From contig JAQBRD010000010.1 in the NCBI GenBank assembly GCA_028286665.1, positions 1 to 41,088 of the forward strand: DNA of 41,088 bases. The letters are read 5' to 3'. Shown here in pieces: positions 547 through 5,908 of this stretch. Below the pieces are notes generated by a model that did no database searches, was not told the DNA's origin, and saw nothing but the letters and a program-made list of their open reading frames with translations. A program made the translations under genes and the position numbers. Each line of letters starts with the position of its first letter. Position 1 is the first letter of the stretch. The stretch is from Candidatus Tayloriibacteriota bacterium. Its GTDB lineage: Bacteria > Patescibacteriota > Minisyncoccia > Phycocordibacterales > PALSA-1337.

Positions 547-1458
547 ATGATTGCGACAAAAAATCGCGTGGAACCGTTTCCTCGCGCTCGTAAGGTCGGC
601 CTCGGCGGACGTCGGCCTCAGTCGAAACAATACGGGGGAACTGATATGTTTATCGACTTTCCCCAGATCAATGACCTACTCGGGACGAATTATCTGCGTA
701 CTGATGTGCCGCAATATCCGTTCCGATTATGGGCAGAGGACATGGTTCAGTTGCATGCTCTCGGTCACTTCACGATCCTCATGAGTCCGAAGACCGGGGG
801 AGATATGGATATGACTCTCAAGCATCTGCAGTTCCAATTCAGAAACAAGCTCGGTTCCGGAAAGCTTTTCCATGACTATACGGTTTATGAGAAGCAAGAG
901 GTCTGGTTCGATCCGGATTGGTGCGCCAAGGAAAGATTTTTCATGGAGCAGACGCCCAAGTTCGAACGCAGGATTGTCGCGCCGGCTATCATCCCGGGCT
1001 CTGCAGACGAAGATTATTTCGTGCAGACGGAGATGATCGAGGATTTCCTCCTCGGGAAAGTCTACAAAAACATCAACAAGCTGCCGCTCGCATATGCTGA
1101 TGCGGTGCAGGAATTCAGATCCAGGAAGAAGGATCTTGCGAAGATGATCAAGCTCGTGGATTGGGATGTGTGCTCCCAGCATTACGTCAATCTCAAGCTG
1201 AATCGCATCTTCCGCATGACTCCCGTCGAGACTGCGTTTTGCGTGATCATATATCAGATGCTGAATGGGAAATGCATCCTCGAAAACACTGCGCATGCGA
1301 CTTCGGTACGGCCTTCATACGGCGATATCGTGAGCATCGGCGGCTTCAATCAGGATGGGGGACTCATTGTTCACGATAAGCCGAGTAAGAAAGATGCCTG
1401 TACTGGCGTCTTATTTTCACAGCCTGTCGATCCGGACAGCCTGATATTGGATATCTGA
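547..1458 (+). CDS. Hypothetical protein (303 aa; alternative start at 646)
   Basis: Long ORF with an SD-like AGGAAGGA upstream of ATG 547; terminator hairpin follows. Family not recognised. Confidence 0.75.
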   Translation: MIATKNRVEPFPRARKVGLGGRRPQSKQYGGTDMFIDFPQINDLLGTNYLRTDVPQYPFRLWAEDMVQLHALGHFTILMSPKTGGDMDMTLKHLQFQFRNKLGSGKLFHDYTVYEKQEVWFDPDWCAKERFFMEQTPKFERRIVAPAIIPGSADEDYFVQTEMIEDFLLGKVYKNINKLPLAYADAVQEFRSRKKDLAKMIKLVDWDVCSQHYVNLKLNRIFRMTPVETAFCVIIYQMLNGKCILENTAHATSVRPSYGDIVSIGGFNQDGGLIVHDKPSKKDACTGVLFSQPVDPDSLILDI

Positions 1459-1542: not shown

Positions 1543-4500
1543 ATGTCTGAAAACCCCATAAATCCCGAAAAGTCTCCTGCAGCTCTCCGCGAAGAGGCGA
1601 CTCTTGCATTCTGGAACCGCGAGAACATCTTCAAGCAATCGATCGAAAAGCCTGCCGGCCTCTCGGAACCGCGGGGCGATTTTGTCTTCTATGACGGACC
1701 TCCGTTCGCGAATGGCGTACCTCACTATGGCCACCTCCTTGCGGGGACGATCAAGGACGCTATCCCTCGATACAAGACCATGCGCGGCTACCGCGTCCGA
1801 CGCCGATGGGGATGGGATTGCCACGGCCTTCCGGTAGAGAATCTCATCGAGAAGGAACTCGGCTTGAAGAGCAAGAAGGACATCGTCACGTACGGAATCG
1901 AGCGTTTCAATGAAGCATCTCGCGCGAGCGTCATGCGCTACGCAGACGAATGGCGGAAGCTCGTGCCTCGTTTCGGACGCTTCGTCGATATGGATGATGA
2001 CTACAAGACTATGGACTGCTCCTATACGGAATCAGTCTGGTGGGCTTTCAAGACGCTGTACGACAAGAGCCTCATCTATGAAGGCTTCAAGGTCATGCAG
2101 CTCTGTCCGCGCTGCGAGACGACATTGTCGAATATGGAGGTCGCGCAGGGATACAAGGATATCGCTGATCTTTCGGTGTATGCGAAGTTCGAGCTCTCGG
2201 AAACTCCGGGGACTTTTATCCTCGCGTGGACGACGACGCCATGGACATTGCCGGGGAACGTCGCGCTTGCAGTCGGTCCTGAGATCGACTATGTGAAGGT
2301 TGCAGCTGCTTCTGCTCCGGCAGTCGAAGGAACTGAGGCTGCAAAATCCGCGGAGACTTTCATCATCGCGAAATCCCGTCTCGAATACATCAAGAATATT
2401 TCAAAATCAGACCTGAAGATCGTCGAAGAAATGAAGGGGTCGGCGCTCGTCGGCAAATCCTACAAGCCCGTCTTCGACTACTACGTTCACGATATCACCA
2501 TCAAGAACCGGGCGAATGCTTGGAAAATATACGGCGCGGATTTCGTCACGACTGAGGATGGCACCGGCGTCGTGCATATCGCGCCCGCATTCGGCGCAGA
2601 CGACTATGAGCTTTCGATACAAGCCGACTTGCCATTCATCCAGCATGTCTCGACGGATGGAAAATTCAAGAAAGAGGTGACGGACTTCTCCGGAATGGAA
2701 GTGAAGCCGAAAGACGGGACGATCCTCGATGCCGAAGGGAAGCCGCTCAAGGATGCGCATCAGAAAGCCGACATCGAGATCATCAAATACCTCGCGCATC
2801 ACGGATCGCTTTTCGCAAAGGAAAAGATCAATCACTCGTACGCGCATTGCTGGAGATGTGACACGCCGCTCCTCAACTACGCTACTTCGTCGTGGTTCGT
2901 GAAGGTCCCATCGTTCAAGGACAAGCTCGTCGCCGCGAACAAGAAAGTGAAGTGGGTTCCGTCGGAAGTCGGGGAAGGCCGTTTCGGAAATTGGCTCGAA
3001 GGCGCTCGCGACTGGGCGATATCGCGATCTCGATTCTGGGGCGCTCCGCTTCCTGTCTGGAAAGATGAGAAGACCGGCGAGGTGGAAGTCGTCGGATCGA
3101 TCGCCGATCTCAAAGCCCGAAGCAAGGCGCGCAATGCGTATTTCGTCATGCGCCACGGCGAGGCCGACAACAACGCGAAGAGCATCATCAGCTCGATCGC
3201 GACCGCCTCTATCCATCTCACTGAGAAGGGCAAAGAGCAGGTCCGAGCAGCCGCTCACAAGCTTCATGCTGAAAAAGCGAAATTCGATCTCGTAATCGTC
3301 TCTCCGTTCCTGCGAACGCAGGAGACAGCAGCTGTGATCGCGGCATCGCTCAAGATCCACAAGAACCACATCGTCACCGATGAGCGCATTCATGAAATCA
3401 ATTCAGGCGATTTTCATGGGAAATCAGCTGAGGCATATCATGCGTTCTTCAAAGGCGCCGATCGTTTCACCAAGAAGCCCAAGGACGGCGAGAATTTCGC
3501 TGACGTGAAGCGTCGCATGGGCGATTTCCTCTATGACATCGATTCGAAATACGAGGGCAAGCGCATACTTATCGTCACGCACGATACTCCGGGGTGGCTC
3601 CTCGCAGCAGCAGCAGCAGGCCTCGACGAGGCTCAGGCCAATGCGCTCCGCGGCACGACGAATTTCTTCACGCAGAATGCCGAGATCCGGAAGCTCGATT
3701 TCGTCCCGCTGCCGCACAACCGCGATTACGAGCTCGATCTCCATCGTCCGTATATCGATACCGTGAGCCTCACTTCGAAAGCGGGGAACAAGCTCGTCCG
3801 CGTGCCGGAAGTCTTCGACTGCTGGTTCGAGTCAGGCTCGATGCCGTTCGCTGAAGCGCACTATCCGTTCGACAAGAGCGAATTCGATCCGAATGCCGGC
3901 GGCTTTCTCGCGAAGCTCACCGGAGGAAAGTTCGGAAAATCGAAAGGCTTCCCGGCGAATTTCATCGCGGAAGGACTCGATCAGACTCGCGGATGGTTTT
4001 ATTCGATGCTCGTGCTCGGCATCGGCCTTTTCGGCCGATCGCCGTACGAGCAGGTCATCGTAAACGGACTCATCCTCGCCGAAGACGGCCAGAAGATGGC
4101 GAAGTCGAAGAAGAATTATCCTGATCCGATGGATATCGTGAATAAATACGGCGCCGATGCTGTCCGCTACTACATGCTTGCATCGCCGGTCGTCCATGGC
4201 CAGGATTTCTGCTTCGCAGAGAAGGGCGTCGACGAAGTCGCGAAGAAGCATATCGGACGCCTCAATAATGTCCTCACGTTCTATGAGATGTATGCGGACA
4301 GGAAAGCCGACGCGCAGTCTTCCGTTTCAAATTTCAATCCTGATTCTGCTGAGAATCTTCTCGACCAGTGGATGCTCGCGCGGCTTGCGGAGCTTTCAGC
4401 GCAGGTAACTGCAGCTATGGAAAGCTACGAGCTAGACCGGGCAACCCGTCCATTTGCTGATTTCATCGACGATCTTTCGACATGGTATCTCAGGCGTTCG

Positions 4501-5280
4501 CGCGATCGCTTCAAGGGCGACAACACGGAAGGCGGTGGAAGCGCAGAAGCTGTGGCTGACAAGGCTGCCGCGCTTGCAACGACCCGTTACATCCTCATGA
4601 CCGCTGCGAAGCTCCTTGCTCCGTTCATGCCGTTCTTCGCAGAAGAAGTCTACGGAAGGCTCAAGGCAGAGCAGTATCCGAAGAGCGTGCATCTGTGCGC
4701 ATGGCCCGAAGTCCCTGCAGCAAAGAATCCGCATATCATCGCCCTCATGGCCGAAGTCAGGCGAGTTTCGTCGCTCGGCCTCGAAGCCCGATCGAAAGCG
4801 AAGATCAATGTCCGACAGCCGCTCTCGACGCTGACCGTCAAGCAGGCCGTTCCTTCGGTCAAGGAAAGCAAGACTGCAGCTTCCATGCTCGCCGATATTC
4901 CCGGGCTCGTCGCGCTCATACTCGATGAGGTGAATGTGAAGAGTCTCGGATGGAAGACCGATCTCGTCGGCGTGGCCGACGCGACTGCCGAAGTCGAGCT
5001 CGATACGGCGATCACGCCCGAACTCAAGGAGGAAGGGAACGTCCGCGAGCTCATCCGCGGCATCCAGGATCTCCGGAAGAAAGCCGATCTCACGATTTCA
5101 GATATGGTCGTGCTTGAAATGTACACCGATGCGTCCGGGAAGGCGATCGTCGAGAAGCATATGGACGAATTGAAGCGGATCACCGGGCTTTCGAGCGTGG
5201 ATTTCGTCCCAGCAATTTCGGCCAATGCTGAAACGCTCAGTATCGGAGGGATACTCTTCGCGATCTCGATCAGGCGCTAG
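1543..5280 (+). CDS. ileS: Isoleucyl-tRNA synthetase with an inserted histidine-phosphatase domain
   Basis: PHYGH (HIGH-like), WGWDCHGLP, VFDCWFESGSMPFA, GLDQTRGWFYSM and KMAKSKK motifs. Extra segment with RHGEAD, SPFLRTQET and THDTPG. Confidence 0.96.
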   Translation: MSENPINPEKSPAALREEATLAFWNRENIFKQSIEKPAGLSEPRGDFVFYDGPPFANGVPHYGHLLAGTIKDAIPRYKTMRGYRVRRRWGWDCHGLPVENLIEKELGLKSKKDIVTYGIERFNEASRASVMRYADEWRKLVPRFGRFVDMDDDYKTMDCSYTESVWWAFKTLYDKSLIYEGFKVMQLCPRCETTLSNMEVAQGYKDIADLSVYAKFELSETPGTFILAWTTTPWTLPGNVALAVGPEIDYVKVAAASAPAVEGTEAAKSAETFIIAKSRLEYIKNISKSDLKIVEEMKGSALVGKSYKPVFDYYVHDITIKNRANAWKIYGADFVTTEDGTGVVHIAPAFGADDYELSIQADLPFIQHVSTDGKFKKEVTDFSGMEVKPKDGTILDAEGKPLKDAHQKADIEIIKYLAHHGSLFAKEKINHSYAHCWRCDTPLLNYATSSWFVKVPSFKDKLVAANKKVKWVPSEVGEGRFGNWLEGARDWAISRSRFWGAPLPVWKDEKTGEVEVVGSIADLKARSKARNAYFVMRHGEADNNAKSIISSIATASIHLTEKGKEQVRAAAHKLHAEKAKFDLVIVSPFLRTQETAAVIAASLKIHKNHIVTDERIHEINSGDFHGKSAEAYHAFFKGADRFTKKPKDGENFADVKRRMGDFLYDIDSKYEGKRILIVTHDTPGWLLAAAAAGLDEAQANALRGTTNFFTQNAEIRKLDFVPLPHNRDYELDLHRPYIDTVSLTSKAGNKLVRVPEVFDCWFESGSMPFAEAHYPFDKSEFDPNAGGFLAKLTGGKFGKSKGFPANFIAEGLDQTRGWFYSMLVLGIGLFGRSPYEQVIVNGLILAEDGQKMAKSKKNYPDPMDIVNKYGADAVRYYMLASPVVHGQDFCFAEKGVDEVAKKHIGRLNNVLTFYEMYADRKADAQSSVSNFNPDSAENLLDQWMLARLAELSAQVTAAMESYELDRATRPFADFIDDLSTWYLRRSRDRFKGDNTEGGGSAEAVADKAAALATTRYILMTAAKLLAPFMPFFAEEVYGRLKAEQYPKSVHLCAWPEVPAAKNPHIIALMAEVRRVSSLGLEARSKAKINVRQPLSTLTVKQAVPSVKESKTAASMLADIPGLVALILDEVNVKSLGWKTDLVGVADATAEVELDTAITPELKEEGNVRELIRGIQDLRKKADLTISDMVVLEMYTDASGKAIVEKHMDELKRITGLSSVDFVPAISANAETLSIGGILFAISIRR

Positions 5281-5299: not shown

Positions 5300-5908
5300 A
5301 TGTCGCATCACGTGTATACAACTCCAGGCTTCGTCATAGACAGCCGGCCGAACGGCGAAGCGGGGAAGCTCCTGTATATCTTCACCCGGGATGTCGGCCT
5401 CGTGCTCGCCGCTGCGCAGGGCATACGGCTCGGCGTTTCGAAGCTGCGCTACCATACGCAGGATTTTTCGCACGCGCTTTTCTCCCTTGTTCGAGGCAAG
5501 GAAATATGGCGATTGACCGGAGCGACGTCGCTCGATGCTTTCCTTCCGACCAACGCGACGCTTGATCCGGTATATTTCCTCCGAGCACGCATATTCGCAG
5601 TGCTGCGGCGCCTCCTCCACGGGGAAGAAGCGAATGAGAAGCTTTTCGACGCGATCATGAGTTTCGAGAAATGGATAAGCTCGGCCGGATTCCTCCATGA
5701 CGATATCGAATCTGTCGAATGCATCATGGTGCTGCGGATTCTCCATATCCTCGGATACGCAGAACATGGCTCGAAGGGCAGTTCCCAGCTTTCCATATTC
5801 CTCGGCGATCCCTCGGACTGGTCTGCGCAGCTCATCATCGAGATGCAGGCGGCGCGCACGGCCGCGGTGAAGGCCATCAATTCAGGCTTGAAAGCGAGCC
5901 AGCTCTGA
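5300..5908 (+). CDS. recO: DNA repair protein RecO
   Basis: N-terminal YTTPGFVIDSRPNGEAGKLLYIFTRDVGLVLAAAQGIR...SKLR, typical of the RecO OB domain; about 200 aa. Confidence 0.85.
   Translation: MSHHVYTTPGFVIDSRPNGEAGKLLYIFTRDVGLVLAAAQGIRLGVSKLRYHTQDFSHALFSLVRGKEIWRLTGATSLDAFLPTNATLDPVYFLRARIFAVLRRLLHGEEANEKLFDAIMSFEKWISSAGFLHDDIESVECIMVLRILHILGYAEHGSKGSSQLSIFLGDPSDWSAQLIIEMQAARTAAVKAINSGLKASQL

Follow-up and report, generated by a model that had tools for sequence, protein, structure and literature searches.

Few enzymes are as tightly constrained as the aminoacyl-tRNA synthetases. Mycobacterial MutT1, which has a role in nucleotide clean-up, consists of a Nudix domain and a histidine phosphatase (HP). 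A second enzyme fused to a synthetase has been described from Mycoplasma penetrans, in which the methionyl-tRNA synthetase (MetRS) carries an aminotransferase domain that is active by experiment (PMC7694997), and an ATP sulfurylase-histidine phosphatase fusion has been reported from a Sulfolobus genome (PMC11237513). In the literature searched there was no description of an HP fused to isoleucyl-tRNA synthetase (IleRS), and AARS Online carries no mention of a phosphatase.

The window, a 41,088-nucleotide stretch of DNA from a Candidatus Tayloriibacteriota bacterium (contig JAQBRD010000010.1), encodes such a protein, a type-2 IleRS with a complete HP domain inside. The features of the locus are as follows.

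547..1458, + strand: upstream open reading frame, no Pfam match, by eye like 2'-deoxycytidine 5'-triphosphate deaminase
1543..5280, + strand: ileS, type-2 isoleucyl-tRNA synthetase with embedded phosphatase, 1245 aa
1543..3126, + strand: IleRS N-terminal half, with the HIGH-type motif HYGH at aa 61 and the CP1 editing domain
3064..3096, + strand: first half of the Zn-ribbon-like element, aa 508-518 (DEKTGEVEVVG), preceding the insert
3133..3690, + strand: HP core, aa 531-716, defined by PF00300, the catalytic motifs, and the structure model
3691..3735, + strand: exit linker, aa 717-731, KLDFVPLPHNRDYEL, defined by conservation comparison
3736..5277, + strand: IleRS C-terminal half, with the second ribbon half, the KMSKS loop, the anticodon-binding domain, and DUF5915
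5300..5908, + strand: recO, RecO_N match

The ileS frame is unbroken from its ATG at 1543 to its stop at 5280 and is the only copy in the genome (0.93 Mb). It matched the ileS equivalog profile TIGR00392 at 854 bits (cut-off, 621), with the match split by the insert, and class I synthetase Pfam matches lie on either side of a His_Phos_1 match (PF00300; aa 534-704, 109.6 bits, E 2e-31 in the whole protein; cut-off, 21.7). All of the type-2 motifs tested for were found, including HYGH, a KMSKS loop that reads KMAKS (aa 851), and the CP1 editing motifs TTTPWTLPGN (aa 230) and GTGVVHIAPAFG (aa 340), and the type-2 IleRS structures 8c8v and 1ile outranked 8c9e and 1qu2 in a Foldseek search with the model of the fused protein. 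The protein falls well below the cut-off of the NCBIfam model for an IleRS with an acetyltransferase domain (NF040702, ileS_w_GNAT; 307.9 against 1999) and has no GNAT domain. Among the compared loci, the recurrent neighbours of ileS are, by eye, argS-like upstream and recO-like downstream, and a family of same-strand genes downstream of ileS recurs in about 100 loci.

The initial annotation had described a complete HP at 3127-3735 of an uninterrupted frame with IleRS on both sides, and the profile matches, a confident structure model, and class-wide catalytic conservation bear this out; the coordinates are right, refined to an HP core followed by an exit linker to aa 731, and the motifs RHGEAD (from aa 537, with His538), SPFLRTQET (from aa 587), and THDTPG (from aa 679, with His680) lie where they had been placed. 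The flanking segments had also been taken to be normally close together. The insert is bounded by GSxxDLK and DLHRP, which are neighbours in solved type-2 IleRS, the last profile position of TIGR00392 before it is 501 and the first after it is 509, and in alignments with solved eukaryotic IleRS chains the residues on its two sides are 494-496 and 498. An ordinary IleRS thus has these flanks side by side. GC and GC3 of the insert (0.558 and 0.690) are equal to those of the flanks (0.548 and 0.678; 0.563 and 0.680). AlphaFold, which had been proposed as a check, modelled the isolated HP domain with a pLDDT of 96.6 (pTM, 0.92) and a 1120-residue fused protein with a pLDDT of 89.6 (pTM, 0.86). The domain of about 185 aa has the alpha/beta fold of the superfamily, and its best Foldseek matches were PspA (4ij6), PhoE (1h2e), GpgP (4qih), and CobC (6e4b), with TM scores of about 0.7-0.77.

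The catalytic set of the window HP consists of His538, R591, the acidic residue E618, and His680, and the core also contains G649-E650. Across the phylum, 115 of 116 embedded HP domains retain the full R-H...R...E/D...H set, and this near-perfect conservation agrees with the earlier expectation that the domain is probably active. The sole exception is the valyl-tRNA synthetase (ValRS) of locus L053, in which the second His is replaced by Ser. PhoE-type enzymes have a substrate lid and SixA-type enzymes do not; the modelled window domain has a lid of about 45 residues, which indicates a small-molecule substrate, and the short, lid-less form is absent, with the SixA-type phosphohistidine phosphatase model scoring 47 bits (cut-off, 74.5). 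No NCBIfam subfamily was found above its cut-off for the window HP, the best being dPGM_arch at 87 bits against 225. Overall, conservation and the structure model suggest that the embedded HP is probably a maintained, active phosphatase of a small-molecule type.

The insertion point is the loop of a Zn-ribbon-like element of the synthetase, a splayed CxxC...CxC that is degenerate in the window protein. In 31 of 48 orthologues the four-cysteine ribbon is present around the insert, with CxxC before it (Cys508 and Cys511) and CxC after it; the window IleRS has lost the ribbon cysteines, with D and T at the first two positions. By mean column score, the HP is a little more variable (0.44) than the synthetase (0.50-0.55), and aa 716-740, which span the exit linker, score highest among the four regions of the comparison (0.65). 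This argues for a fixed docking of phosphatase and synthetase, such that the exit linker probably holds the HP in a set position.

The architecture is widespread among the Patescibacteria related to the window genome. An HP was found inside the IleRS frame in 93 of 100 related genomes, a count taken from frame lengths, and all 80 of the named loci retrieved from GTDB genomes (Taylor-, Nomura-, and Campbellbacteria, and others, including the complete Campbellbacteria chromosome CP011215.1) carried exactly one HP in IleRS. These two samples rule out a misassembly or one-off, and the possibility raised in the initial annotation, that the architecture occurs only in this assembly, fails with them. 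A class sample of 138 IleRS frames included 86 of at least 1100 aa, 39 of 900-1099 aa, and 13 cut by contig ends, where the figure of 86/138 reflects frame length and the domain was checked in 20 long frames (19 of the 20 fetched had the HP). About two thirds of the class carries the fused form. In an even sample of the phylum, HP was present in the IleRS of 24 of 140 genomes, including all ten from the class of the window; most other classes had no HP and no visible replacement, so aminoacylation in itself does not require the HP. In one locus the IleRS-HP frame is open for 2195 aa to the locus end (L200:3013-9597), and the extra part has no recognised domain. A viral origin or carriage was rejected, as 34 pattern matches in viral contigs yielded no relatives.

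Across the phylum, HPs occur at four places in IleRS, in some cases after the part that holds KMSKS, and also in ValRS (n = 7). One family (f127) has two HPs within the same IleRS region, and a 1572-aa IleRS (L036:2167-6882) has three at three places. A single clade of all HPs at site A of IleRS was rejected (AU p 4e-5), as was a single clade of the ValRS HPs (AU p 0.011). The HP trees have about 180 columns and are short and noisy and the IleRS core tree was built by a quick method, in which the fused or unfused state needs 23 changes and gain, loss, and gene transfer are inseparable, such that statements on origins rest on the AU tests. HP was recruited to IleRS and ValRS more than once, with no exact number implied. 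In another Patescibacteria family (L052, L054), an HP is the C-terminal part of a membrane protein of about 450 aa that is DedA-like by eye.

Across the loci, HP may be inside IleRS, adjoining it, elsewhere, or absent. In five loci with an insert-free ileS (L069, L074, L102, L103, and L107), a separate HP gene, which belongs to the subfamily of the embedded HP, abuts or overlaps the ileS start, with junctions from an overlap of a few bases to a spacing of 14 bases. A sixth locus (L094; 4426-6051) has the order argS, HP, an open reading frame, an HD protein, and an insert-free ileS. Of the 44 insert-free loci, 6 had an HP gene no more than 2.5 kb away, compared to none of the 167 fused loci (Fisher p 6e-5, a test that treats loci as independent, which they are not). 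Two free HP genes lie away from ileS (L075, L088), and their neighbours give no functional clue.

Other enzymes are embedded in sibling synthetases. The leucyl-tRNA synthetase (LeuRS) of the window genome (L260:645-4040, G000:C10, minus strand) has two embedded Nudix domains, and related Nudix domains occur in long frames of about 20 of 143 class genomes. A ValRS (L048:1827-5657) combines an HP and a serine hydrolase with a HAD domain that lies in its editing region; an IleRS (L043:3138-7490, minus strand) carries a GNAT acetyltransferase domain and an HP at two different sites; and two IleRS (L247:2977-7053 and L234:2893-7020, one of them from a Nomurabacterium) carry the usual HP and a C-terminal HD domain that interrupts DUF5915. 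No NCBIfam subfamily was found for the LeuRS Nudix or the IleRS HD domains. Of the six types of added domain, four act by cleaving phosphate bonds. A broader proposal, that IleRS, ValRS, and LeuRS with embedded HP, Nudix, HAD, and HD domains constitute self-cleaning class Ia synthetases in the Patescibacteria, is doubtful; if true, the embedded hydrolases would break down adenylylated by-products or alarmones at their site of production and would stand in for free enzymes in minimal cells.

The reading favoured here, and held tentatively, is of a bifunctional IleRS in which the HP clears an adenosine-nucleotide by-product linked to aminoacylation. One gene would yield a type-2 IleRS with a PhoE/CobC/PspA-like HP seated in the Zn-ribbon-like surface loop, and the synthetase fold would run on undisturbed on either side. 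Under standard HP chemistry, His538 would be phosphorylated, Glu618 would act as acid/base, and His680 with two arginines would hold the phosphate of what is predicted to be a small phosphorylated molecule. That this molecule may be an adenosine nucleotide which the synthetase itself produces or sets free (AMP, or the breakdown products of an Ap4A-type by-product), to be cleared at source, is a guess and the weakest part of the scheme, and no sequence features in the HP single out AMP or Ap4A products. A link between the HP and aminoacylation is made more likely by the repeated recruitment to IleRS and ValRS and by the abutting HP-ileS gene pairs.

The main rival is that a housekeeping metabolite phosphatase is parked in a tolerant loop, with no tie to isoleucine charging, which is possible though on balance not what would be expected. 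The GNAT and serine hydrolase inserts suggest that these synthetases may simply be tolerant of insertion, and the diversity of inserts in kind and site (HP, Nudix, HAD, HD, GNAT, and serine hydrolase) is what parking would give, as is the retention of the HP catalytic residues; the separate HP gene overlapping ileS is a plausible precursor or break-up product. Parking accounts poorly for the repeated choice of IleRS and then ValRS, with the HP dominant among recognised inserts, and for the more than one origin indicated by the AU tests, the conserved docking linker, and the lack of an HP gene beside any fused ileS. In another order-level genome, a motif scan likewise placed HP in IleRS only (about 80% scanned, with a crude filter). 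A regulatory role, in which the HP would dephosphorylate IleRS, a partner protein, or a signalling nucleotide such as an alarmone and so tune translation, could draw on the HP and small RelA/SpoT-type HD protein between argS and the insert-free ileS of L094, and on full RelA/SpoT-like genes near ileS in L040 and L041. The lid, however, is PhoE-like and not the open SixA form, the association with HD is rare (at most 6 of 219 loci), and HP-type phosphatases are not known to hydrolyse alarmones, such that this role is improbable.

The remaining alternatives fit less of the evidence. The HP as the phosphoglycerate mutase of the cell, or as a stand-in for a lost central enzyme, was suggested by the archaeal dPGM model being its closest NCBIfam neighbour; with the score so far below the cut-off, an iPGM in the window genome, and HP-bearing relatives both with and without iPGM (22/41), it is most unlikely. 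An inactive or structural insert, with no role beyond shaping the synthetase or the way it contacts tRNA, would suit the conserved linker and the confident joint model, and is just as hard to credit when the whole catalytic set is retained in all but one domain, class-wide and beyond, and many close synthetase relatives work without the insert. Self-protection linked to aminoacyl-tRNA synthetases is known, and GNAT, Nudix, and HP inserts sit in the antibiotic-target synthetases for Ile, Leu, and Val; a role in resistance, through the destruction of nucleotide-type inhibitors that target class Ia synthetases, is nonetheless very unlikely for a domain that is near-universal in an order without a known inhibitor. 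Compensation for a lost soluble pyrophosphatase was rejected, with inorganic pyrophosphatase present in 15 of 85 fused and 7 of 39 unfused cases and no association.

Overall, it seems that these Patescibacteria, a large group of tiny and for the most part uncultured bacteria, carry out a second reaction within one of the core enzymes of translation. An active site kept across a bacterial class would imply a real link between charging and phosphate removal, one that is undescribed in the literature searched, and could reveal either how nucleotide by-products are handled in minimal cells or how essential proteins host parked enzymes. The coupling is directly testable, as the domain is discrete, relatives that naturally lack the insert or have it as a separate gene can serve as controls, and other hydrolases sit in the sibling synthetases.

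Compared to known systems, the window HP has the fold, the RHG motif, the second Arg, the acidic residue, the second His, and the lid in common with PhoE, CobC, PspA, and GpgP (1h2e, 6e4b, 4ij5, and 4qih), but those enzymes are free-standing, whereas the window HP lies inside another enzyme and below every subfamily cut-off. The type-2 IleRS of Thermus (1ile), Priestia (8c8v), and yeast (8wnd) have the same core, editing and anticodon domains, and DUF5915, with an unbroken Zn-ribbon-like loop and no phosphatase insert. The proteins of NF040702 are also IleRS with an extra enzyme domain, though an acetyltransferase and not a phosphatase, and MutT1 ties an HP to a Nudix domain without a synthetase part. 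The Sulfolobus fusion joins an HP to an adenylate-forming enzyme, as in IleRS-HP, but is a single archaeal case with no synthetase, and an internal conserved insert was not reported. Among systems studied by experiment, the aminotransferase-MetRS of M. penetrans comes closest. There, too, a class Ia synthetase of a bacterium with a reduced genome bears an additional active enzyme, which differs in being an N-terminal appendage, known from a single organism, that supplies the amino acid. Embedded enzymes in synthetases are thus already known, and it is the IleRS-HP architecture that is new among them.
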